Source of the DNA: Diplolepis rosae
Taxonomy: Eukaryota; Arthropoda; Insecta; Hymenoptera; Diplolepididae
DNA length: 64,000 nt
NCBI GenBank assembly: GCA_030998225.1
Contig: JAPYXD010000710.1
Span: 33,061,501-33,125,500, forward strand
Reading direction: 5' to 3'
Shown here piece after piece: positions 3,548 through 63,553 of this stretch. The notes beneath the pieces are model-generated. The model was given only the letters and a program-made list of their open reading frames with translations, did not search any database and had not been told where the DNA came from. Positions within the stretch are counted from its first letter, which is position 1, and each line of letters starts with the position of its first letter. Both the position numbers and the translations under genes were made by a program.

Positions 3548-6500
3548 TCATACATTTCTCAAAGAAGAGAGGTGAGATAGAACTTCTTGTCTGCACCAAA
3601 TTTTTGAGTCGACATTGCCTTTCACAAAGTTTGGTTCATAACTGGAAGATTCATCATACTTATTTATGCTTCCGTGCTCATTTCTACGGTATTCAATATT
3701 GATTCTCCCATTCTCGTCAAAACGCAAAGGTATAATAGAGTTAAGACTATCCATCGACAAATCAGCGTCGTAACTATCCAACTTGGCCTTGCGCCTTGTA
3801 GAGTTTCGTGTCTTCTGTTTTGAATTATTATGCTTTCTTCGATCTGGCGATGGTGACCTAATAATATATTCAAATTTAAATTATTTAGTAAGACAACAAA
3901 TTAGTACCAAATATAACAAAAAAAGTACTAAATTAGCGTAAAATACAGAAAAAATGTGAAATTTTCTTAAAAAACTAAGGTATGAAAAATCAGCCGAGTT
4001 AAATAAAAGTGAGCAACTTGTAAAGTCATAAAAGCTTGACAAGCATAATAATTATATCTCGTTGAAAAATGAAAATATATGGATGTAAAACTTCTTGAAA
4101 ATTAACAATCCTATTTAAGAAAAGAAAAGCATATTTTTTTAATTAATAAATAGTTACCTTGAGCCGTCATCGCTGCTTTCCAGTTGACGCCTTCTGAGCC
4201 TTAAACGACGCTGATAATGAGGGTCCTTTTCACTCTGGGTTCTGTACCTTGTACCTGGGCTACGGAAATCTTTCATCACTTCAAGTCACCAAACCGTCCG
4301 GAAAACTTTAATTAAATAAAGGAAAAAATTTTCTAAGAGATAGATATTTTACCGATTGGCATTCCATCTTGGTCTCGTATCGAGACTCGTCCTATTTTGC
4401 GTCTTAATCCTGGGTACAATTTTCATTGTTGTTTCCTCTGCTGTACTTGTGTATGTTGACCTTAAATAATAAATCAATAAATGATAAAAAATATATAAGA
4501 AAGTAATACAAGAAATGATTTATAATTTATTATCAAATTTTGAACTGACTTTTCTACATCCCTACGATTGTTATTAGCAGCATCCTTCCTCTCCTTTAGA
4601 AAATTTTTGCTGATTCCCATTTCCTGTATACTATCTTGTAGATTACGAATGTCCTTTTCATTGTCAGTCTGGGTTCCAAATTCTCTTAAAATTGGTATCC
4701 TGTATTTACTAGGAGTAAGTAGTCGATTTTCGACAATTCTAGGAGAGACTGTTGTTTTGGAAGAAGTCGCATAACAAGGACCATTCCAACTATTAACTAA
4801 GGCAGTCAATTCCGTCATGAAACTGTTGACTTCAGTTTTCCTAGGACTTGGAGTCATAACCAGATTTACTACTTGAAGGTTGGCTTTGTTTAAAAGCTCT
4901 GAATCCTCGAGCCTCCCACTCAGAACAATAGCAACATCTTTGCTAACAGGAACTCGAATTGAATTTGGTTCTTTTGGTACTCCAAAAGATTCTCGTTCGG
5001 TACTCTTCCCTTTGACATTAAGGAAATCACTTTCTCTTTCATTATTCATCTGCTTTGTTTCTTTTTCAATTTGAACATTGATGCTCTGATTATTGTTAGT
5101 TTGTTGATGATCAGGTAAATTTTGATCTGGAAGACGTTCTTTCGAATCAGACTCATATATATTGGAATCAGCTGTTGAATTATTATTTTCGTTAATGTCT
5201 TGTTTTCGACGAAGTTTTTTTTCTTCTTTCGCTAGACGTTCTGCTGCTTCGAGAACTTCTTTCATCGCTTCTGCCTTTCTTTGCTTAGCAGCTTCTTTCT
5301 CTTTTTGCTTTCGCTGCTCATCTTCAAGCCTTAAAACAAAAAAAAAAACATTGATGTTCTTAGGACTTCAAATATTTTTATGATCTCCAAAGGTTGTAAG
5401 AAATACACTATCGCTGGAAGTTATTATTGGTGCAGTTACTTTTTTGTTTAACTTTTTATATATTATTTTAATTCTGAATATATTAAAAATAAAAATTGTT
5501 TACCGTTCTTTTTCCTTGTCTCTTTCTTTCTTTATTCTTTCCTCCTCTTCCTGTTCCTCTTTTATCCTCCTTTCTTTCTCTTCCTTTCTTAGTCTTTCTC
5601 TTTCTTCTAATTGCTGTTTAATTGCATTCTGGAGTTCAATGGCCTTCTGTCGACGGGCTTCACGTTCCTGAAGCACGTCTGCATCGATTGGCAAATTTTG
5701 ACCTCGTAGGTAAGTCTTATTAGACTCAGAACCAGTAGAACCTGTTGTTGAACTATCAGGACTGCTGGCACTATCATGATTGATGACTAAAACCTTTATA
5801 AAAAACGAAACATAGATAAGCTAATTTGAAAATAAAATTTTGTGTTTACTTTGATTTTTTTGTTTAAATTAGAATTACCTGACTGGAATGATCTAATCGG
5901 GAGAGACCACGTTCTAGCCAAGAAGGTGGTGGAGGATCTCCTTTTGAAACGTCCTGATCAACGACACTTTCCCATCGAGGTCGATTGAATTCACCAGCTC
6001 TGATACTAGAAAGTCTTCTTGAAGTAGGTAAAGAACTTTCGTCGGTTGTGTAGTAAGGGTTCTGCCAAGTCTTTTGAGTATTAATTTCTGATGGTTTACA
6101 AGACATCAAGGATCCTAGAAGCGAAATTTATTGATAATTTTAAACTTATAAGAATCAAAAAGTTTTTTAATAAAACCTAATACCAAAAAAAAAATCTGAT
6201 AAATTCAATTGAAAGTCAGTCAATTCATTGATTATCAGTATCAGTATTCAGTAGTAATTTTGCGTCAAGTTTTAGCAGATCAAATACTAGGCATCTAAGC
6301 ACGGACTGATAATTATTAGTAGAATTTCGCTAACTAAAATTTGAGTAACTAAAATCAGTTTTCTCTGAAAATTTAGTTTATTTTTACTGATTACTGTAAT
6401 GAAAATGTAGTTGGTTATTTTTGGTTTCTTTGAAAAATCACCTTGAAGTGAAGTTACAGTGGCTTCGACGGAATCGCTAGCGTAACCGGAAGTTTCTTCT

Positions 6501-13656: not shown

Positions 13657-15936
13657 CTAGTGCATAGAAAATAAATCACCCGCCGAAGGAAGTGGAGCCA
13701 ATCCGCCCGTCACATCCGGAAGTTGAGTTAAATCAGGAAGATTTGAAATATGAGATTTCACTTCCGCTCTCACGGCGCACACTTTCTTCAACTTCTCTTT
13801 GTAATCCTAAAAAAACCAAGTGAAAGTCCTTTTTATTTTGAAATTTCATCACTTTTGATTGGACAAATGAATTCAAAAGCATTTTTTATAAAAGTATATT
13901 TCTCAAAAAAATTCATTATTAATCTTTATAAAATACCGAAGCAAGGGTTTCATTTCTACATAAAGCCTATATTACTTTTTTCTAAGTACAAAAGATTACG
14001 GAGGGTATTAAAAATTTCTTACTTCTAATGTTGTCTGAGCCTGTTGCAATAATTGCCTTTGCGCCAGTGTGTAATCTCTCAACATGGCTAAAAGTCTTCT
14101 TCTGTCTTCCATTTCTGCTTGTAATCGGCCATTGTAATCTGCTAAAAGAGCAGCCGCTTCATTCACCGCAACGCTCAGTTCATCAGCAGCTGCCCTATCA
14201 GCAAGATTCGCTAGTAAAGAAACTTCTGAAACCTCTGGGGGCAAGGACGCAATTCTTTCTCGAACACCAGCATCTGACGACGCCGTATTTTCCAAATCCT
14301 GAAAACAAATACAATTTGTAATTTCTCCTTTTACATTTCTTAAAAAATAATAGGGAAAATAATTATCTATAAAAGTAGAATGGAAATTTTTTTAAAAAGC
14401 AATTTTAAATTACAAATTTTAAGATCTAACCATCTAGACAATCACTGCATTAATTCTGCGTCAATTTAATTTAAGTAACAAACGAAAGACTATAAAAGAA
14501 GCTTGGGTCTTCGAAAATTTTGATTTAACTTTAGATTTTCGTTTTTAAAATAAAGACTGTTTATTGGCATTGTTACATAATCTATGATAATTTTTGCAAG
14601 TATAAAAATGACATGAACCATTAAAGCCTTTATGAGCTCCTCTGTTTCTGGTGGATCTCCACCTGGAGTTCTTGGACTCAGGGTAACATGTAATTCTTTG
14701 GTGCCATCAACTTCGACTTCCGTCTCGGACTTTTTCCTCTCCTTTTTCTCTTTCTGTAAAATATATTTAAGTGTTAGAAATAGTTCAATAAAATAACAAG
14801 ACAAATGCAAATGTAAAATATATATTACCTTAACCTTCTCGGATTCAACTTTCTTTTTCTTTAAAGGCGGGGTTCCTGGCTCTTTTTTTGTGTTAGTGGC
14901 AGAATTAAAAGCCGCCTTAAATTCAACGATTTGGCTTTTATCATATACTCCTCTTTCCTCCCAAATCTGCAGAAGCCTACCTAATCTTTCTCTAGTTTTA
15001 TCGTCAAACCCTTTCATATGATCAAAAGCTTTAGGTAAAACTGTCGCGAATTCTTTGCCAAATTCTGGTCCTTTTTTCTTGCTATTCTGAATCACGTCAT
15101 TAGCCAAATACATAAACATCAATTTACGATTGTCCTTCACTGAAATAAAAAATATAAATTAACGATAAATGGAATGAGAGGCATTTCTATTTAAAAATAT
15201 TATTTCCATAATAATATCAGCAAAATGGAGAAAATAATAACTTAAAATTAGAGGAATACTTGAACGATAAATTAACTTAAAGGTGTTCTTTGAACTGAAA
15301 ACAGGGACAGTCACTTTACCGTTAGAAGTACCGAAATCCACGTGTGTCGCTCTAGTAAATACGATAAATAAGTAAAAAAGATGAATCGAATCACCATTTT
15401 ATATTATTCCCATTTATTGGTACTATAATTTTTTAATTAAACTTTTGAATCAGTTGAAATTTTTCAAAAAACTTGACTTCATTATGAAATTATTTCGGAG
15501 TAAACAAAGCATAAAACGTCACTAGTCCTTTCGTAAGCCAATTATTGAGTAGCGATAAGAGCAATCATTAAAAGTATCGAATGTAATTACATGAAAAATG
15601 AGAACGGTTCGACTAGAAAGTGGATTAAAACGTTTATTGAATACACACACAGAAAAGTGTACTAGCGTCTAACCTGCAAATTTTTTATGTTGAAATACGA
15701 ATAACGTTTTTCACGTATAATTCAAGTGATAGTTAGCAACAAAAACCAATTAAGATTGTTTAAAAAATTAAAAAGTAAAACTCACCTTTGCACATTTCTT
15801 TAAACCAAACTTTAACTATCACTGGATGATGTTTTCTGTGATGAATTAACCAAAGAGAGAGAGTCTGTATACTTTGTTGCGACGGATTAAGATCCATTAA
15901 TTTTTTCACTAACGCACTTTCCGTGAACCCTGCCAT
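13657..15936 (-). CDS. RPRD1: Regulation of nuclear pre-mRNA domain protein 1 (RPRD1A/B, CREPT family)
   Basis: Five exons, 15936-15786, 15139-14829, 14753-14619, 14298-14023 and 13806-13657, join in frame to 340 residues (human RPRD1B is 326). Residues 1 to about 130 are the CTD-interacting domain, with SLWLIHHRKH, YLANDVIQNSKKKGPEF and LLQIWEERGVY all visible. A Lys-rich linker follows. The C-terminal half carries EELIKAL, the YNGRL-AE-EDRR coiled-coil core and the conserved end LPDVTGGLAPLPSAGDLF. The family binds Ser2- and Ser7-phosphorylated RNA polymerase II C-terminal repeats and recruits the RPAP2 phosphatase, affecting transcription and cell-cycle genes. The start was taken at MAGF by homology; the frame is open upstream but that part looks untranslated. 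The donor after exon 3 (ATG then GTTCAT) is weak, yet the frame confirms it. Whether it is closer to RPRD1A or RPRD1B cannot be decided by eye. Confidence 0.97.
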
Positions 15937-52723: not shown

Positions 52724-54271
52724 TGTTACGTCATGAAATGACGCTTTGGTGGAAATTTCATAAAAGGGGTAATGAATTATTTATTCCCCTTTTTTTTTTT
52801 TTTTTTTATAACCGTAATCCCCGAGCGGCTGACGATTACGGTTTTGGATTCAACTCTCCTATTAAAGGGGGGCCACCCTTATCCTACTTTCGAATCTCCA
52901 ATATTATTAAACAATTAAATAAAGGATATAATGATAGAAAGAAACAGTGAGGCGTTAATTGATGAAAATACAACTTTATTTGTTACCTTTCAATTGATGA
53001 CTAAAATTATTCCGTTGATGTCCAGATGTTGAGCAGCCCTGTGAATCGAGTGACCCTCTCTTCTTCTTCCTTAATATAGTTGTTGTACAAACAATAACAT
53101 TTATTTAAACACGTCGCGAAACTATTAAATTTTGACTTAAACTACCAGATTAATCTGGGCACGAAAACAAGTGTGAGAAATTACGGACAATCGAACGCCT
53201 GCTTTATCTGAGATTTTAATGTCGTCAGTTTCAGGGGCCGTTCCAGGCTTGAGGGACTCTCGACAGAAATCTCAGAGAAAACGGGTGATCGATTAAAGAT
53301 CAGAAAAATAACTGAAGAGTCTGAGCAGGAAAAACTCGGGGGTGAGCTAAGCTGTTACTGTATTCCCCACCTTGAACTTTGATTAACCAATTAGGTTTGC
53401 TTCAGAAATTTTAAGGTGGTTACCACTGAAAAGTGGGGTTAATTAGGTCTGGTTTCTGGGGGTAAATGTGACGTCACATTTTGACCATCCGATTGCTTGA
53501 CCGGCTCTTAGTAGACCTTTGGGGAAAATCCCAATTACACCCCAATACCTAGTGGCCGCTATTCAATCCAAAAGGATGTTTGTAAGCAGTCAAGGAAATT
53601 GGGGTTATAAAATGCTTGTCGCCAGTTTACAAGTTGCTTATAGAATTTGAAGCTTAGGTTATTACTTTCCAAGCAATAACGTTGCAGTTTATAAGAGGGA
53701 CTCCAGACTGCTCCTCCCAAGGATTTCCTCACAGACCCGAACAATTATCACGACTCAAAGGTCCACTATTATTATTGAAATATTAATACTTATTTGGGAT
53801 TTAGCTTTATTTTGGAGATTTCACTCGATTCACAATGCGGCTCGACATCTGCTGATCTGAAAATGACAAATGTAATAAATTTTACAATATAGTTTATAAT
53901 AATGTTGACCTGAAGCTTAGACATTTTACAGCTGGCAAAAGAAAACGCAATTCAAGAAATACCTTAGAAGCACAATAGTATTTAAAATTAATAAGTAAGC
54001 GAATACAAGTAAATATGCACATAAACGTAAACATACACAAACACGCACACACATAGCCCAAAAAACTATTAGAATATATATTTCTATTGTGAAATCTTAC
54101 ATTATTATTAATAAGATAATTAGGAGATTAAAGCAATTTCTTCATACGCATGCAACCACTCTTATTCTATTATTAACCTTCTGCATTCTTACATTTTAAT
54201 TTATTTAAAAAAAACAGAACTTGCGGTTAAGGAGTTTAAAAATAATTTTGGAGCCACGTACGGACGTAACA
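52724..54271 (-). repeat. 3' LTR (relative to the element)
   Basis: 1548 bp, bounded by TGTTACGTC and GACGTAACA. By eye it equals the other LTR except for one extra T in an 18-T run at about 52790-52807. Near-identity means a recent insertion. Confidence 0.95.
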
Positions 54272-54282
54272 TCCCCCTCCTT
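54272..54282 (-). other. Polypurine tract
   Basis: On the minus strand AAGGAGGGGGA lies directly before the 3' LTR, the expected primer for plus-strand DNA synthesis. Confidence 0.85.
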
Positions 54283-55001
54283 AAGCGTAAGTTTACTGTA
54301 AGAAAGTTACGCTTGCCGAGCGTGGTAGGAAGCAACGCGCGAGGCAAAAAGAAAGGCCTAGTTGTTACAAAATTATTTTTCGTGTGGTCCAGGTGTCCTT
54401 CATTACATTTTGGCTGAAATTCTAGACGTTCTTTCTGCGACGATTCGTGTGAGGATATAGTTTACTACCGGTGGCAAGTTAGTAAACTCGTTACAAATAA
54501 GAGGAGCAAAAATGAAATTGTTTACATGTATGTTGAAAACAAATACTCTTGAACTGAACAATTCTTTCGATTTTTATTACGTCGCGCCTAGATAACTATT
54601 TTTAATTGTCTATGAAGATTGCAGAAGGATTCGTTGAATTTTTAGGGGAACTGATTTCGGATGGTATCTTCGGGCAATACCATCGTTGTCATCAATCCCT
54701 TTTATTGAACCGTGATGAATCTAAAAGGCGCATATTGTGATACAAGCAAAGGTTTGAAAATTAAACAGTTAAAAGCAAAATTAGTCATGAATAAGGCTCT
54801 ACTACATTTGCTGAGGAAATGACATAAATTTTTAAAAACTTTTAAATGCAATAACAAGGTTCTACTTTTTATTCTCTTAAGACCTTAATTTAAAAGAAAA
54901 GAAAAGATTTTATAGCGCTAAAACTAAAAACTCATTAATTCAATTAAAGTGAAATATTTTATTTACTTCTATTTCGTTATGCTATTTGTAATATTATATA
55001 T

Positions 55002-55034
<33 letters not shown>

Positions 55035-55076
55035 TTACCATTATTATCATTATTATTATTATTATTTTTAATGGTA
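54283..55076. other. Element sequence between pol and the 3' LTR
   Basis: About 0.8 kb without an env frame. It contains a T run of about 28 bases (55003-55030) and an ATT microsatellite (55035-55066). Confidence 0.7.
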
Positions 55077-57902
55077 CTAATCTGAGTTGGATGAACTCTC
55101 GAAATAAGCAAGTTTAAGTTTATCAAGGTGCTTGATAAATGTCTCGCCATTCCCATCAATCAGTATGGCATTGTTTCGGTCCAAGATTTCCACGACCGAG
55201 TATGGTCCATCGTACAATTGATCAAATTTATGCAGTGGTGGATCTCGCATGACTAAAACGTAATCCCCGACCGCAAATTGTTTCATGTTTACTCCGCGGT
55301 CGTAGTACCTCTTAGATCGAACCTTTGCCTGCACCAAGTTGTTCGCGGCTATTGAACGTATATGGTCTAGGTGCTGTACAAGATCTTTTAAATAGGAGCC
55401 ATACGTTTCAAGGCGATCAGTAGAGGGGAAAATACTTGGTAGCCGAGCCACTTTCCCAAAAACAAGCTCGTGGGGCGAGAATTTAGTGCCTTCATGCACT
55501 GAAGCATTATAAGACAGCATAGCGAAGGGTAGGAGGCGGTCCCAATCCTCGTACTGCTCCATGTAATGCTTCAAATAATCGGATAAGACTTGATGGCTCC
55601 TTTCCAGTCCTCCGTTGGTTTGTGGATGATATCCTGAGGTCGTCAGGTGTTTTAAACGAAAAATACTCGCCAAGTTACGGAGAGTCTGATTTATAAATTC
55701 CCCACCTCTATCTGAAAGGATAGCGCGGGGACAGCCAAAACGAGCAATGAGTTGTCGAGCGATGGCGTCAGCAACTGTAATTGCTTGCTTGTTAGGTATT
55801 GGCTCGGCCAAGCAGTATTTTGTCAGATTATCTTGCATGGTCAAGACGTATCTATTTCCATCCGGTGTGAGGGGAAAAGGACCGACAAGGTCAATTGAGA
55901 CCTTATCAAAAGCATCCGCAGGGGTATCTGTAATGATCATTGGCTGGCGCGTTTTAATTCGCACCAGCTTTTGTTGCTGACAACTGCGGCAGCGTTTGAT
56001 AAAGTCCTGAATGTCCTTCTTCATCTCTGGCCAGAGGAAGCGGTTTCTGATGGACTTGTATGTCTTAGTGACGCCTTTGTGGCCTCCCGTGAGGCTCGAG
56101 TGGTATTCGTGGATAATATGTTTCCTTTGGTCAAGAGGTGGAATTTTGACCTCTCCCGTACACAGAGTAAACGTGATATCTCTGTTTGCAAACAACGATC
56201 GCAACGTGTTGCGTAGGGTATTCGAGGGTAGTCTATCCAGTCCGTCCCCGACCTTTGATATTCTGATGCTCGACACGTGATTTCTTTCCAAAGCAATACA
56301 CAAACTTGCGATAGTCTGATAAAGATCCTCAGGTGTCGGCTGATCAAAGTAGCGATTTTTAATCACTGCACTGAAAATGAATATATTTCCGATTTTGGAA
56401 ACAATGACCTGTCCCTTTTTAGGCTTGCATTCTTTTAATCGATCAGGATCCACCAAGTCGAGATCAACCAAGGTGAGGCCTACATCGGTTTTAATCATAC
56501 AATCTGCAGATATGAAATGTACCAGATTGTCTTTGCCAAAGGTTAGGGCATCTCGAGTAGTTTTAATATTTAATGTGGGTGTACCTGGTCCTCGATCAAT
56601 TTGTTCTTGGACTGGACTATCTGTGAGAGGTGGAGGGATCCAATCATCAACTGGAGGAACAAACTCATATTGTCCGATTATGTTTATTTTGGGCAGCGGT
56701 TCTTTATTTTTCGGTTCGTTGATGTTTTCTGAAGGTTCAGGAGGTGATATTAACCGAACGATTGGCGAATTCACGGTTGAATTCGCTTGCTTGTCTTGCA
56801 TGTCTGCATCTGTGAGAGTTTTATCACCTTCGCTGGGCATTCGAACCATTGTGTTCTCGAGTTGAACCATCGTCTCCTCGAGATCGGAATCCGATGCACT
56901 AGGGTATGCTGGAAGCTCTATAACGGCTGGGTGAAATTCCGTGAAGGTTCTCTCATCCCCCTCCTTATCGTGTTCGCGAGGATGAAATTCGCGCTCTACA
57001 CAATGAACCTCTGACGATGGTAGGAACCTGTCTGAGAAGACCTCATCCAGGCTCACCGGTTCATATGAGGATGGTGGAATGTATTCACTATCGAGGGAAC
57101 GAAGCAGCCTTTTTCTTTGACCTTTTCTTTTTCGCGTTTTACGCCCAGAAATTACGCAGTGGTCTGCCTCATCATCCGAGGAGTACGAGAAAGACGGCTG
57201 CTGCCTGTTTAATGTCGCGCTTTTGGGTAACGGATCTATCGGTTCTTCCTCATATCGTGGTCGAGGTAAGATTCGTCGGCGCTGTTTCACGCGATCTGCG
57301 ATGCCGGTATTTTCCTTTTTCGCGTTTTCGGTATGGCCATGACGTTCTGGCGTCGAGGTTGTTTGCGGTCCTCGTGATTTAGGCGGTCGTCCCGGTTTCC
57401 TCTTTTGTACCTGCAAGGGTAATACCGTAATTTCCGCGGTTTCTGTTATCGGATTCCGCGAAAGTGCATCTGCATTTTTGTTTATTTTTCCCGGCTTGTG
57501 TTGAATCGTGTACTCATAGTCCATCATACGCAGACGCCAACGAACCAACCGAGATGAAGGATCCTGAGTACGATCCAGCCAGTTGAGAGCCTCATGATCT
57601 GTCACGATAGTGAACTTCTTGCCGTATAGATAGTGTCTAAAATATTTAGTAAAGTAGACAACAGCCAGACATTCACGCTCTGTGACAGAGTAGTTAATCT
57701 CGGCTTTTGTGAGTGCTCGTGAAGCGAAAGAGATTGGTAGGTCTTCGCCAATTTTTCCTTGGCTTAAGACAGCTGCAATCGCTATATTTGATGCATCGGT
57801 GGTTAAAACAAATGGTTTTTCGAAATCTGGGCACTGAAGAATCGGTTCAGCGCACAAACAGTCGCGCAAATCTTCAAAAGCTCGCTGCTGTTCTTCTCCC
57901 AT
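55077..57902 (-). CDS. Gypsy pol, 3' part: RNase H, extra region with macrodomain-like segment, integrase
   Basis: 941 codons. RNase H: residues 1-150, with Asp36 (TTDAS), Glu77, Asp102 (TDHEAL) and Asp145. Extra region: 151-590, beginning with an AT-hook-like KPGRPPK at 169-175, then low-complexity acidic and proline-rich sequence, then a macrodomain-like segment at about 450-583. Integrase: zinc motif His601, His608, Cys638, Cys641 (GGHKG, CRSC), catalytic Asp671, Asp731 and Glu767 (SDRGGEF, GGLERSH), then a C-terminal barrel-like part with VGDYVLV and YDGPYSV. It processes reverse transcripts and joins cDNA to the host genome. The frame begins within the end of the upstream pol frame; its ATG is not a real start, because the two parts are one pol separated by a frameshift. 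Most Gypsy pols have only a short linker where this one has over 400 residues. Confidence 0.92.
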   Translation of the reverse strand: MGEEQQRAFEDLRDCLCAEPILQCPDFEKPFVLTTDASNIAIAAVLSQGKIGEDLPISFASRALTKAEINYSVTERECLAVVYFTKYFRHYLYGKKFTIVTDHEALNWLDRTQDPSSRLVRWRLRMMDYEYTIQHKPGKINKNADALSRNPITETAEITVLPLQVQKRKPGRPPKSRGPQTTSTPERHGHTENAKKENTGIADRVKQRRRILPRPRYEEEPIDPLPKSATLNRQQPSFSYSSDDEADHCVISGRKTRKRKGQRKRLLRSLDSEYIPPSSYEPVSLDEVFSDRFLPSSEVHCVEREFHPREHDKEGDERTFTEFHPAVIELPAYPSASDSDLEETMVQLENTMVRMPSEGDKTLTDADMQDKQANSTVNSPIVRLISPPEPSENINEPKNKEPLPKINIIGQYEFVPPVDDWIPPPLTDSPVQEQIDRGPGTPTLNIKTTRDALTFGKDNLVHFISADCMIKTDVGLTLVDLDLVDPDRLKECKPKKGQVIVSKIGNIFIFSAVIKNRYFDQPTPEDLYQTIASLCIALERNHVSSIRISKVGDGLDRLPSNTLRNTLRSLFANRDITFTLCTGEVKIPPLDQRKHIIHEYHSSLTGGHKGVTKTYKSIRNRFLWPEMKKDIQDFIKRCRSCQQQKLVRIKTRQPMIITDTPADAFDKVSIDLVGPFPLTPDGNRYVLTMQDNLTKYCLAEPIPNKQAITVADAIARQLIARFGCPRAILSDRGGEFINQTLRNLASIFRLKHLTTSGYHPQTNGGLERSHQVLSDYLKHYMEQYEDWDRLLPFAMLSYNASVHEGTKFSPHELVFGKVARLPSIFPSTDRLETYGSYLKDLVQHLDHIRSIAANNLVQAKVRSKRYYDRGVNMKQFAVGDYVLVMRDPPLHKFDQLYDGPYSVVEILDRNNAILIDGNGETFIKHLDKLKLAYFESSSNSD
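56148..56561 (-). other. OARD1/TARG1-like macrodomain segment within pol
   Basis: Residues about 448-585 of the 3' pol frame. Visible landmarks: NLVHFISADC, GQVIVSKIGNIFIFSAVIK, YFDQPTPEDLYQTIASL and ISKVGDGLDRLPSN, then NRDITFTLCTG. These follow the order and spacing of the OARD1/TARG1 macrodomain family, whose catalytic residues are a Lys (K84 in human) and an Asp in GLDRL (D125); both have counterparts here (Lys515, Asp556). The glycine-rich ADP-ribose loop that normally follows the first Cys is changed (KTDVGL), so substrate binding or catalysis may be altered or lost. OARD1-family enzymes remove ADP-ribose from acidic residues of proteins. The assignment is by eye, from family knowledge. 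Confidence 0.75.
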
Positions 57903-59629
57903 TCGAACTTTTTGAATTTCTTTAGCAGTTCGGTCAATGGTTTGGCTCGTTGAGCCATGTTAGAAACAAATCTCCGGTAGTAGCCCACGAGACCCAGGAA
58001 TTCTTTTATATTCCTAGCACTCTTGGGCACCGGGAACTGTTTCACCGCTTCGATTTTTTTTGGATTTGGGCGTACACCGTCCGCTGAGATAATGTGTCCG
58101 AGATAAGCGACTTCTGTGGACAAAAATGTACATTTCTCAGGTTCGAGCCGAAGTCCAGCGTTGGATAGCCTTGTGAATAAACGATCAATCTTAGCATCAT
58201 GCTCATCTAAAGAAGATGCATACACAACGATATCGTCGATGTAGACGAAAAGTTCCACCCCCTGCAATCCGATTAAAACGCGATCCATCAACCTTTGAAA
58301 GGTCGCTGGAGCGCCCTTCAATCCGAAAGGCATACGGAGATACTCGTAGTGTCCATTGTCGGTAGTGAACGCAGTCTTTTGTCTATCTCTGGGATTCATA
58401 GGAATTTGATGAAATCCCATGGCGAGATCGAAAACCGAAAAATACTTTGCACCGCCGACATGGTCAAGTATCTCATTTATGTTAGGTAGAGGGTATGCGT
58501 CGCCAACGGTTTTCTCGTTTAACTTCCGGAAATCGATCACAAGACGCCAACGCTTGTTGCCGTGCTCGTCAGCTTTCTTCGGAACAATCCAAAGAGGCGA
58601 GTTATAAGGAGAACTAGACGGACCGATAACACGAGCTTCGAGCAGTTTTGTTATTTGCTTCCTTACTTCTGCCTTATGTACCGGTGGATAGCGATACTGC
58701 TTGCTATTAATGGGAACGTCATCCACAGTTGGAATGTCGTGCATAGTCAAACCGGTTCCGAGGAATTTATCCCCATTCAGCAGAAACAGGTAAGGAAACT
58801 TCCTCAAATAACGCTCAACGCGGCGACGTCGGTGCTCTCCTAGTTGATGAGCTTTTACTTTGTTTAATATAACGTTGACTCTTTCGTCGAGAGATTCTAG
58901 AGGTTCGCGTTCAGATTGTAAGATATCAATTAAATCATCAGCTTCCTCGTCAAAAACGTCGTACGGAGTCAATTCCTGAGGTTCTATCTGCACTTCTATA
59001 TCTTCCTCCGTGGGGTTGATGGCTAGCACATTACACTTTCCATTCTGAACAGAAACAGCTGCGTTGCCAACGAACAATCCCTCGTGAGATTCGATTAAAG
59101 GCAGGAAGCCCTCAGAAAGAGCCTCGTTTTTTACAGGAATTGAAATTACCTGACGATTGCGAGCTTTTATGACATATACAACCTTTGATTTCAACTCAGA
59201 GTTGTCGATGTCAACAGTTGGCAGAGAAAATTGGTTAGTACCAGTTACCTCGTTCAAGTCTTTCTTCGCATCGTCACTTGATAAAAAGGGAATCGGTTTG
59301 ATAGGGTCACTATCAATCACCAGCGTGTCATGGTGAAAGGAGATCTCGGCTTTTTCCGATCGAAGAAACTCAAGTCCTAGAATCCCGTCGCCGGCGAGAG
59401 GTAAAGGGTCTCGCAAAGCATGAAATTTAGCAACAACTCCCAGAATCTTGAGATAGACCGCACCTGCACTCTCTATTTGATTCGACGTGACCCCCGTTAT
59501 CATGACACGATCGTATAGGTGGATATCCACGTCATCGGATAATACATTCAATGAAATTAAATTGCATTGGGAACCCGTGTCTATCAAGAACCGAGCCTTA
59601 CCCGTGAGAAAATCGCACGATTTAATCAT
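57803..59629 (-). CDS. Gypsy pol, 5' part: protease and reverse transcriptase
   Basis: 608 codons, of which about 575 are the true pol frame. Aspartic protease: Asp17 in FLIDTGSQ and the later ILGLEFL. Reverse transcriptase: residues about 300-560, with WRLVIDFRKLNEKT, catalytic Asp401 (FDLAMGFHQI), MPFGLKGAPATFQ and YIDD at 463-466, then LGHII and LGLVGYYRRF. It makes element cDNA. The ATG shares its first base with the last base of the gag stop codon (TAATG), suggesting termination-reinitiation in place of a long gag-pol fusion. A one-base deficit in a G run at about 57900 throws the 3' end out of frame, so this copy cannot make full-length pol in one frame. Confidence 0.93.
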   Translation of the reverse strand: MIKSCDFLTGKARFLIDTGSQCNLISLNVLSDDVDIHLYDRVMITGVTSNQIESAGAVYLKILGVVAKFHALRDPLPLAGDGILGLEFLRSEKAEISFHHDTLVIDSDPIKPIPFLSSDDAKKDLNEVTGTNQFSLPTVDIDNSELKSKVVYVIKARNRQVISIPVKNEALSEGFLPLIESHEGLFVGNAAVSVQNGKCNVLAINPTEEDIEVQIEPQELTPYDVFDEEADDLIDILQSEREPLESLDERVNVILNKVKAHQLGEHRRRRVERYLRKFPYLFLLNGDKFLGTGLTMHDIPTVDDVPINSKQYRYPPVHKAEVRKQITKLLEARVIGPSSSPYNSPLWIVPKKADEHGNKRWRLVIDFRKLNEKTVGDAYPLPNINEILDHVGGAKYFSVFDLAMGFHQIPMNPRDRQKTAFTTDNGHYEYLRMPFGLKGAPATFQRLMDRVLIGLQGVELFVYIDDIVVYASSLDEHDAKIDRLFTRLSNAGLRLEPEKCTFLSTEVAYLGHIISADGVRPNPKKIEAVKQFPVPKSARNIKEFLGLVGYYRRFVSNMAQRAKPLTELLKKFKKFEWEKNSSELLKICATVCALNRFFSAQISKNHLF

Positions 59630-60915
59630 TATTTCTGGGAACGTGTGTTCCGAATACTCGCGACTTTCGTGAGTATCTTTGGCATTGCAGATATCGAGCT
59701 TGTTGGTCTCGCGCTCGCCATGATAGTTGTTTGGCGAGCGCTCAAGCAGTTTAAATTCTCGTGGCCACGCTCAGCCTGATTTTCGTTTTTCGATTTTATA
59801 TTCGAATGCGTGGGATCGGGCGCAAGACTTTGCGTGCTGTCAGCTGCTACTTGTAAATTATCTAGCTCACTGCAGCAGCGAGCGCAAAGTGTCGAGATAC
59901 CGGAGGTTACTTCAGCTACATCATATGGTTTCGAGCGGCCACTATGATAATCAGTAGGATCCAAATCACCCCCCTGGCTCCCGCAGTACCCGCTCCAGTC
60001 ATATGACGGTTGCTCGTATGTTTCCCGCGCGTAGTGGACCGTTTTTCCCATATCTCCGTAACGCGGCTGCGGCGGCCGATAGCTATGATGTATTGGCGGT
60101 CTGAGCGATCCGTAAGCGCGAGGTGTCGAAAGGTGTTGTTTATTTTCTCCATTTCGTAAACCTTGTGACGGGCTAAAACTTCGCGTTTGAGGCGGTTGAT
60201 ATCTCTGCTGAGAATAATTTTGAAAAAGTCGTGGTGTGTAAATCGCGTTCTCGCGGGTGTGCGGTTGTTCGGAAAGAAACAGTTCCTCTTGCCGAGCGAA
60301 CTCAAGCGCGTCTTCTAGAGTTTCCGGTTTTTTAATAAACACTCGGAGTTCAATGTCCGGGCGTAATCCCCTTCTAAACCCCTCAAGAGCCGTGGCTTTT
60401 ATCAATCCCATTAAAGTCGGAATCTGCTCCTCTGGAAAATTTTGTGATAAAAGAGCAGATTTCGCCTTCCCTACCAATCTCTGAGTACGAAATGCATAAT
60501 CAGAGGCTGATTCATTTGCCCCCATACGCAACTGAGCGAGTTGTGCCTGGCATTGACTGAGTGTCAAACCGGCTGGTGAAAATATGTCGCGCAAAAATTT
60601 TATGAGGTCTTCGGTTGAACGGAAGGTTCTACCCTCAACAGCTTCGCGCGCATTACCGCGTAATTTACGCAATATTCCCGTGGTATAGTTTGTTTTCAAG
60701 GAATCAGGAATCATCGATAACCCCTGTTCCACATCGTATAAAAAGGTTCTCAAGGGTGGTTCTTTCCCGTCAAATTGTTCCACGCCTTGGAGGGCAGCCT
60801 GCAGTTGCATGAAGTGCAATGCAGCCATGCCAGGGTCGATAGGCTGTGTATTGACAGGTTGACTGGTGGCACCTAGATTCACAGTGTTTTGTGAAACGTT
60901 ATTTCCACCGACCAT
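59629..60915 (-). CDS. Gypsy gag
   Basis: 428 codons. Residues about 45-215 look like a retrotransposon capsid (FDGKEPPLRTFLYDVEQGL, then RLVGKAKSALLSQ and ALEGFRRGLRPDIE). The C-terminal half is rich in Gln, Pro, Arg and Tyr and is probably disordered and RNA-binding. No CCHC zinc knuckle is visible; the only close cysteines are in CARCC. The frame is intact. The identity rests on position upstream of pol and on capsid-like pattern. Confidence 0.88.
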   Translation of the reverse strand: MVGGNNVSQNTVNLGATSQPVNTQPIDPGMAALHFMQLQAALQGVEQFDGKEPPLRTFLYDVEQGLSMIPDSLKTNYTTGILRKLRGNAREAVEGRTFRSTEDLIKFLRDIFSPAGLTLSQCQAQLAQLRMGANESASDYAFRTQRLVGKAKSALLSQNFPEEQIPTLMGLIKATALEGFRRGLRPDIELRVFIKKPETLEDALEFARQEELFLSEQPHTRENAIYTPRLFQNYSQQRYQPPQTRSFSPSQGLRNGENKQHLSTPRAYGSLRPPIHHSYRPPQPRYGDMGKTVHYARETYEQPSYDWSGYCGSQGGDLDPTDYHSGRSKPYDVAEVTSGISTLCARCCSELDNLQVAADSTQSLAPDPTHSNIKSKNENQAERGHENLNCLSARQTTIMASARPTSSISAMPKILTKVASIRNTRSQK

Positions 60916-61975
60916 CTTGAATATCGCTCAAACTTTGAGCACAAAAACACGGTTTGTCTAAGATTCTATAATATTTATATATATATATATGTATGTATAT
61001 CCCTGTATACCAATAAGCAACCTACGGCACAGAATAATTTTGAAAGTGGTTCAGATAAGTAAAAATATGAAAGAAAAGTTCTGTTTCCGAATAAATTTTA
61101 TATCAAAATTTGACTCTGACGTTTAGCTATTTCTTTCAAAGTACATAAAAAAGCAAGGGTGTTACAATCGAATTTACGATTTACTGTAACTACACAATCG
61201 TGATTTGTAAAGAAATCTTAAGGGAAACTCATTAAAAGTATACAAAAACATACACACAAAACGTAAGGCAATAAAACATAAATTAACTGACAGGAACTAG
61301 ATATGATATGAATTAATGAAGTTCGTACGCTCGTGTGTGTGACAAACGAGCAAAAGACATTACAAAATAAATTTAAGATCCTTTTCGGTTGCAAAATTAG
61401 AGCATAATCACGAAAAATCGACTCCGCAGTCACCAAGTTATGAATTAGACTGTTAGAAATGTTCGGAATTTCATGAAATTCTATGTTACAAAGGTAGCGT
61501 TAATTTGGCAATAGTTACGATTCATTTAAGTAAAGGTGTCTGATAATTGCGAAAAGGATTTCTTAAAATTCTATCTCAATTCTACGAAATTGCAGCCGAA
61601 TAAAATTCAAGTCGCATGCTCAGCAGGACACGGTAGAAATCAGGAATTAAACTGATTAGAAATTAGAAATTGAACACAATGTTTAGCTCATTTGTGACAC
61701 ACGAACACACAATAAAAGGTAATCTATGAATGCAGCACAGTGGATGATATTTAGACAGAAAACGATAGATTTGGCTCAAGCTTTCAACGTTTCCTCTGCA
61801 GTGATAAAAGAGAAAATTGGGCCTTCTTAAGGATGGATAGAAATGAAATCTTCCTTAGCAGTAACGTTGAAAACCCGATTTATATAACGAAAAAAAAAGA
61901 GAAAAGGGAAATCAAAACAAATTTATCAATGCTGAGAAATTAGAATTCCGAAAGTAGAAAAGGTTGCGGAGAGAA
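60916..61975 (-). other. Untranslated leader of the Gypsy element
   Basis: About 1.06 kb between primer site and gag without a long frame (the best minus-strand frame is 72 codons at 61218-61436). It probably carries packaging signals or an internal ribosome entry function, neither visible by eye. A (TA)n run lies at about 60978-60999. Confidence 0.6.
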
Positions 61976-61994
61976 AATCCCACTTCTGACACCA
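61976..61994 (-). other. Primer binding site, tRNA-Leu
   Basis: The plus strand reads AATCCCACTTCTGACACCA, equal to the 3' end of eukaryotic tRNA-Leu including CCA, so the element's RNA strand is complementary to it over 19 bases. It lies 12 bases inside the 5' LTR. Confidence 0.9.
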
Positions 61995-62006
61995 AATTAT
62001 TTTCAC

Positions 62007-63553
62007 TGTTACGTCATGAAATGACGCTTTGGTGGAAATTTCATAAAAGGGGTAATGAATTATTTATTCCCCTTTTTTTTTTTTTTTTTATAACCGTAAT
62101 CCCCGAGCGGCTGACGATTACGGTTTTGGATTCAACTCTCCTATTAAAGGGGGGCCACCCTTATCCTACTTTCGAATCTCCAATATTATTAAACAATTAA
62201 ATAAAGGATATAATGATAGAAAGAAACAGTGAGGCGTTAATTGATGAAAATACAACTTTATTTGTTACCTTTCAATTGATGACTAAAATTATTCCGTTGA
62301 TGTCCAGATGTTGAGCAGCCCTGTGAATCGAGTGACCCTCTCTTCTTCTTCCTTAATATAGTTGTTGTACAAACAATAACATTTATTTAAACACGTCGCG
62401 AAACTATTAAATTTTGACTTAAACTACCAGATTAATCTGGGCACGAAAACAAGTGTGAGAAATTACGGACAATCGAACGCCTGCTTTATCTGAGATTTTA
62501 ATGTCGTCAGTTTCAGGGGCCGTTCCAGGCTTGAGGGACTCTCGACAGAAATCTCAGAGAAAACGGGTGATCGATTAAAGATCAGAAAAATAACTGAAGA
62601 GTCTGAGCAGGAAAAACTCGGGGGTGAGCTAAGCTGTTACTGTATTCCCCACCTTGAACTTTGATTAACCAATTAGGTTTGCTTCAGAAATTTTAAGGTG
62701 GTTACCACTGAAAAGTGGGGTTAATTAGGTCTGGTTTCTGGGGGTAAATGTGACGTCACATTTTGACCATCCGATTGCTTGACCGGCTCTTAGTAGACCT
62801 TTGGGGAAAATCCCAATTACACCCCAATACCTAGTGGCCGCTATTCAATCCAAAAGGATGTTTGTAAGCAGTCAAGGAAATTGGGGTTATAAAATGCTTG
62901 TCGCCAGTTTACAAGTTGCTTATAGAATTTGAAGCTTAGGTTATTACTTTCCAAGCAATAACGTTGCAGTTTATAAGAGGGACTCCAGACTGCTCCTCCC
63001 AAGGATTTCCTCACAGACCCGAACAATTATCACGACTCAAAGGTCCACTATTATTATTGAAATATTAATACTTATTTGGGATTTAGCTTTATTTTGGAGA
63101 TTTCACTCGATTCACAATGCGGCTCGACATCTGCTGATCTGAAAATGACAAATGTAATAAATTTTACAATATAGTTTATAATAATGTTGACCTGAAGCTT
63201 AGACATTTTACAGCTGGCAAAAGAAAACGCAATTCAAGAAATACCTTAGAAGCACAATAGTATTTAAAATTAATAAGTAAGCGAATACAAGTAAATATGC
63301 ACATAAACGTAAACATACACAAACACGCACACACATAGCCCAAAAAACTATTAGAATATATATTTCTATTGTGAAATCTTACATTATTATTAATAAGATA
63401 ATTAGGAGATTAAAGCAATTTCTTCATACGCATGCAACCACTCTTATTCTATTATTAACCTTCTGCATTCTTACATTTTAATTTATTTAAAAAAAACAGA
63501 ACTTGCGGTTAAGGAGTTTAAAAATAATTTTGGAGCCACGTACGGACGTAACA
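62007..63553 (-). repeat. 5' LTR (relative to the element)
   Basis: 1547 bp, same ends as the 3' LTR. It should hold the element's promoter on the minus strand; I did not fix its start site. Confidence 0.95.

Follow-up and report, generated by a model that had tools for sequence, protein, structure and literature searches.

A TARG1-family macrodomain in front of the integrase of a Ty3/Gypsy retrotransposon in Diplolepis rosae

Human TARG1 (also OARD1 or C6orf130; structures 4J5Q, 4J5R and 4J5S) is a free-standing macrodomain. Passages of PMC9411070, PMC5087735 and PMC7050489 describe it as acting through Lys84 and Asp125 (PMC7050489 prints Glu125), and passages of the last of these describe it as taking ADP-ribose off proteins and nucleic-acid ends. 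Here we describe a domain of the same family that is not free-standing but fused to the integrase of a Ty3/Gypsy element, a long terminal repeat (LTR) retrotransposon on the minus strand at 52724-62368 of a 64,000-nucleotide stretch of the Diplolepis rosae genome (contig JAPYXD010000710.1 of assembly GCA_030998225.1; hereafter the window). Other described macrodomains are more distant. Those of the DarG antitoxins (5M31, 5M3E and 5M3I) have 13-15% identity to the window domain and, unlike it, belong to one half of a bacterial toxin-antitoxin pair. The macrodomains of RNA viruses (alphaviruses and the virga-, negev- and flavi-like viruses of insects) likewise lie inside a polyprotein and match in fold, but they belong to another kind of genome, and the alphavirus domains match the window domain worse than TARG1 does. 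Among reverse-transcribing elements, some fish epsilon-like endogenous retroviruses have likewise gained a macrodomain, according to a passage of PMC4977317 that cites Basta et al. 2009; there, however, it is encoded in additional open reading frames, whereas here it lies inside pol, before the integrase, in many Gypsy elements. In the PMC literature, for which some match lists were viewed in part, that passage was the only link between a macrodomain and a retroelement that we found, and we came across no description of such a domain within a Ty3/Gypsy pol. In other words, the fold is known and the kind of element is known, while their arrangement was not found described in that literature.

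Some integrases bear an N-terminal extension at the place where the macrodomain sits. In the integrase of prototype foamy virus (PFV) such an extension precedes the zinc domain and is far smaller than a macrodomain. The PFV and Ty3 enzymes are the solved integrases closest to that of the window (E 5.7e-27 and 1.9e-25, respectively), and neither was among the PDB matches of the macrodomain profiles.

Identity and position of the domain

The macrodomain occupies about 56136-56558 (141 amino acids) in a minus-strand open frame of 960 codons, counted stop to stop, at 55077-57959. This frame encodes, in order, RNase H (57516-57899; PF17917/PF17919), a linker (56559-57515), the macrodomain, the zinc-binding H2C2 domain of the integrase directly after it (55968-56138; PF17921) and the integrase core (55623-55907; PF00665, rve). 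An earlier note, made from the letters of the window alone, had proposed a macrodomain-like segment between RNase H and integrase. All of the motifs it quoted (NLVHFISADC, GQVIVSK, QPTPEDLY, KVGDGLDRL and DITFTL) are present in this one frame, and the Pfam domains on either side bear out the location.

Sequence and structure searches agree on the identity of the domain. With phmmer against the whole PDB, TARG1 was matched at E 1.1e-8 and was the sole molecule matched up to E 1; with a profile of the domain it was matched at E 2.5e-16, the next match being unrelated (0.013), and in two PDB profile searches it was the only macrodomain better than E 0.01. Foldseek matched the model of the window domain to macrodomain structures at E 2e-10. 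Both this model and one from a diverged branch of the relatives have the three-layer macrodomain fold, aligning over their full length with solved macrodomains, and for both TARG1 is the top match in sequence and structure, ahead of other macrodomains. The Foldseek superposition of the diverged-branch model on TARG1 is loose (TM 0.69, root-mean-square deviation 5.8), while the VIA superposition is tight. The structural comparison that had been put forward as a refuting test thus returned a match, and the segment is confirmed as a macrodomain of the TARG1 (OARD1, ALC1-like) family.

General domain scans do not recognize it. Pfam and NCBIfam scans made no macrodomain call in the window frame, the Pfam Macro family, PF01661, was reported in none of the 41 copies of the domain that were scanned, an initial search against proteins, using the segment as a region within the long frame, gave no match at E 10, and a search of the D. 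rosae genome with PF01661 gave three exon-like matches. The lack of a Pfam Macro match, together with the low-complexity sequence found at this place in three relatives, is what would be expected if the resemblance were due to chance or the segment were a neutral spacer, but the E-values, the confidence of the models, the structural match and purifying selection make this explanation very improbable. We dropped the neutral spacer because of the selection on the domain (see below).

Spread of the domain and selection on it

With the window integrase as query, 342 public proteins matched at E 1e-10, of which the best 120 were listed. On a first pass, the domain profile matched 110 of these just before the integrase, with 85 of the matches covering most of its length; after one refinement it matched 117, a count from a profile refined on the same proteins, with E-values scaled to that small set. 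These 120 are the most window-like of the 342, so the share of 117 cannot be taken as a frequency for Gypsy elements generally. P0102 and P0120 matched at first pass only over a short C-terminal piece, and P0120 looks eroded. In P0060, P0062 and P0067, which are close integrase relatives, low-complexity sequence stands in place of the macrodomain. The source names of the integrase relatives include "transposon 412" and "17.6".

We divided the relatives that bear the domain into 40 near and 77 far proteins by an E-value cut of our own. A 98-row tree of the integrase, made by a quick method without an outgroup or an inferred root from 56 near rows, 39 of the 77 far proteins and the 3 without the domain, places those three at two positions inside the domain-bearing group; at least two changes must therefore have occurred, and we read the absences as probable losses rather than as traces of a gain. 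Across the 117 proteins, distances in the domain follow distances in the integrase (Mantel r 0.81, with 0 of 999 permutations as high). Most likely, these comparisons suggest, the fusion took place in an ancestral Ty3/Gypsy element and the domain has been inherited with the integrase since.

A host species is named for 34 of the best 120 relatives, representing 23 species, and 32 of the 34 carry the domain. The three species that we looked up are all Hymenoptera, and we take the other 20 to be Hymenoptera as well. Relatives without a species name may come from any host, some perhaps from D. rosae or a species very close to it. We also observed that the integrases of four ENA-derived proteins (P0052, P0055, P0057 and P0073) are identical, or almost identical, to those of D. 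rosae copies (L019, L021, L024 and L043), so that DNA of this host or of a near relative is present in public metagenome-type records.

The earlier note had attributed the domain to capture of a host OARD1-like gene. The gain of a TARG1-family macrodomain stands; a recent event does not, because 117 of the best 120 relatives share the domain and it tracks the integrase, and a host OARD1 gene is only a possible ancient donor. The idea that the window element took up OARD1 from its host in a single recent event could appeal to the closest solved relative being an OARD1 protein, but it is hardly credible given that same distribution, on which it was dropped. It also fares poorly in the genome itself. 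With TARG1 as query, at least 150 loci were matched there; among the 150 listed we inspected the 12 best and 12 with short or broken frames, and integrase sequence adjoins all 24 (in L071 only as a 29-residue piece). No free host OARD1 was recognized among these 24, and a host gene among the other 126 is possible. Since every inspected match adjoins integrase, genes annotated as "OARD1-like" in genomes of this kind could be pieces of transposons.

Insect viruses offer another possible source. In BFVD, the window model matched TARG1-like folds in polyproteins of insect virga-, negev- and flavi-like viruses and in VP8 of Kadipiro virus. From such structural matches, the insect-virus macrodomains could represent an alternative donor or a parallel capture. 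A scan of viral_contigs gave 33 stretches that matched a pattern, none of them confirmed.

A search of the D. rosae genome with the segment itself produced 2,820 candidates, of which 150 were scored. These 150, the window included, have 36-100% identity and 127 of them are free of stops; the domain is thus not the one-off insertion that the earlier note had named as a refuting outcome. We hand-picked 40 of these 150 loci for spread, and in all 40 integrase sequence directly follows the domain. With the window they make up the 41 copies used below, two of which (L009 and L010) are identical to the window in the domain.

To describe selection we used the ratio of nonsynonymous to synonymous substitution rates (dN/dS) for pairs of these copies, the pairs not being independent of one another; 32 of the 820 pairs had a dS of 0.1-1.2. 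In the 23 pairs at a dS of about 0.25 or above, from three groups of related copies, dN/dS was 0.10-0.22 in the domain and, where measurable (18 of the 23), 0.03-0.14 in the integrase. In the pairs measured, the linker beside the domain (its last 95 codons) changes faster than the domain itself: its dN was the higher in 15 of 17 chosen pairs, and its dN/dS was 0.22-0.89 in the 15 of those pairs in which it could be computed. This substitution pattern indicates that the domain is under purifying selection and that the fold is kept while the linker is not.

The pocket and the role of the domain

The alignment numbering was anchored on TARG1 Ser35, an assumption of ours that places Lys84 and Asp125 as in the papers. 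The counterparts of these two residues in the window are those that the earlier note had given as Lys515 and Asp556, counted from the first methionine of the 960-codon frame (residues 534 and 575 stop to stop; minus-strand codons 56358-56360 and 56235-56237, respectively). In the 41 copies, the Lys84 position is K in 34, R in 6 and T in 1, and the Asp125 position is D in 21, G in 13, E in 4 and N in 3. His32, Asp37 and Gly66 are invariant, and Ser35 is S in 37. The pocket loops hold the diphosphate of ADP-ribose. Passages of PMC7050489 lend support to this role. The first loop (GAGIA, TARG1 41-45) has Gly41 and Gly43 in none of the 41 copies, in agreement with the altered glycine loop of the earlier note; in the second (GCG, 121-123), G121 is kept in 32 copies and G123 in 14, and 40 have Asp at Cys122. 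Compared with TARG1, then, the first glycine loop is lost, the second has gained an Asp, and Asp125 varies among copies.

Other relatives keep more of the pocket. Lys84 and Asp125 occur together in 15 of the 40 near and 41 of the 77 far public relatives, and Trp129 in 71 of the 77; the alignment of this diverged branch holds 25 sequences, out of 36, out of 64 picked from the 77, and is uncertain at the loops. The Lys84 column ranks 22 of 125 in the D. rosae copies and 13 of 120 in the far group, and the Asp125 column 63 of 125 and 40 of 120. The 12 D. rosae loci closest to TARG1 (L052-L063) all have a G-N-G second loop, and five of them (L057, L058, L060, L061 and L063) have Lys84, Asp125 and Trp129 as well, although the first loop is changed here too. 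Judged by these residues, one genome spans pockets from fairly TARG1-like to clearly eroded, so that whether the activity or the fold is needed becomes directly testable.

The explanation we favor, at a probability of roughly 55%, is that a TARG1-family macrodomain became attached ahead of an ancestral Ty3/Gypsy integrase, has been inherited with it, and acts in the window lineage as a non-hydrolyzing binding or assembly module. The domain would form an N-terminal extension of the mature integrase. In the window lineage ADP-ribose hydrolysis would most likely have been lost, and the module would bind DNA, another integrase subunit or a host protein; in other branches the pocket seems to be kept enough for possible binding or hydrolysis of ADP-ribose. 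A binding module is the simplest reading because the fold is guarded, while the linker and much of the window-lineage pocket are not. Insect-restricted alphaviruses, too, have lost catalytic residues of their macrodomain according to a passage of PMC7729036, which relates this to the antiviral PARPs of mosquitoes, as we read it to their absence from the genomes. Such a module on the integrase fits better than hydrolysis, in line with the earlier suggestion of an ADP-ribose- or protein-binding module guiding integration; any ligand is inferred. The result puts a name to the fold and likely ancestry of the stretch that precedes the integrase in insect retroelements of a common class, and ties transposon integration to ADP-ribosylation biology.

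An active ADP-ribosylhydrolase, working on proteins of the element or host or on DNA or RNA ends and countering ADP-ribosylation as viral macrodomains do, is unlikely on the residues observed. The window copy does have counterparts of both catalytic residues, the pair recurs in the relatives, the five loci named above add to it a G-N-G second loop and Trp129, and TARG1 itself acts on both kinds of substrate. If the enzyme were active, however, these residues should be fixed across copies, whereas 20 of the 41 have G, E or N in place of Asp125 and 7 have R or T in place of Lys84, the second-loop Asp is nearly universal, and even the best TARG1 matches are without the first loop. The earlier proposal that the window element may hydrolyze ADP-ribose is therefore weak. 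A reader that binds ADP-ribose without cutting it, so that the integrase is led to chromatin modified by PARPs or to nicked DNA, is quite improbable: it would suit the direct fusion to the integrase and the retention of the fold and of Lys84, and the ALC1-like class includes both readers and erasers in passages of PMC7050489, but the loops presumed to hold the diphosphate are altered and a match in fold proves no function. We consider it doubtful, though conceivable, that the integrases of this whole insect Ty3/Gypsy branch include a domain for processing ADP-ribose: those of the L057, L058, L060, L061 and L063 type would be active, clearing ADP-ribose from DNA ends or from integration complexes, and others, the window's included, would be binding modules; a change from enzyme to adaptor would then be in progress within one genome.

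Several observations weigh against the explanation we favor. Lys84 is conserved beyond the needs of a pure scaffold (34 of 41 copies; 64 of 77 in the diverged branch), and loss of Asp125 is no proof of inactivity, since DarG, which keeps only the Lys, and SCO6735, which has neither residue, are both active according to passages of PMC9411070 and PMC7050489. The title of a 2025 preprint (PMC12632316) states that chikungunya virus in Aedes mosquitoes needs ADP-ribose binding by its macrodomain, not hydrolysis, which favors a reader and speaks against a purely non-ligand role. The domain's place in the mature integrase is inferred. The domain is also not indispensable, because P0060, P0062 and P0067 keep an open integrase frame without it. 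Finally, the nine pairs at a dS of 0.10-0.15 have a domain dN/dS of 0.20-0.80 (the five highest values all involve L044 or L046), and four pairs at a dS of 0.06 or less, which are little informative, have 0.27-1.19.

The rest of the element and the window

Between the LTRs the order is reverse transcriptase, RNase H, integrase. The 5' LTR (62007-62368) and the 3' LTR (52724-53086) share two matching blocks at 100% identity, with a spacing between the blocks that differs by one base, and because the blocks are identical the insertion is probably young. Inspection by eye showed no target-site duplication around the element. A gag-like open frame lies at 59629-60927, its sole match being PF19259 (Ty3_capsid), below threshold at E 0.16. 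The reverse transcriptase (58088-58582; PF00078) is in a frame at 57803-59770 that differs from the RNase H/integrase frame; that is, the junction with RNase H is split over two frames in the window copy, while certain other loci in this genome are open for at least 1,500 codons. In the roughly 2 kb from the end of pol to the 3' LTR (53087-55076), the listing of open frames contains no recognizable envelope gene, and the longest minus-strand frame has 86 codons.

Elsewhere in the window, a minus-strand open frame of 263 codons at 4474-5265 has no Pfam match. Another minus-strand frame, at 14490-15140, contains a CID domain (PF04818, E 1.3e-22) and is probably an exon of a host RNA-processing gene.
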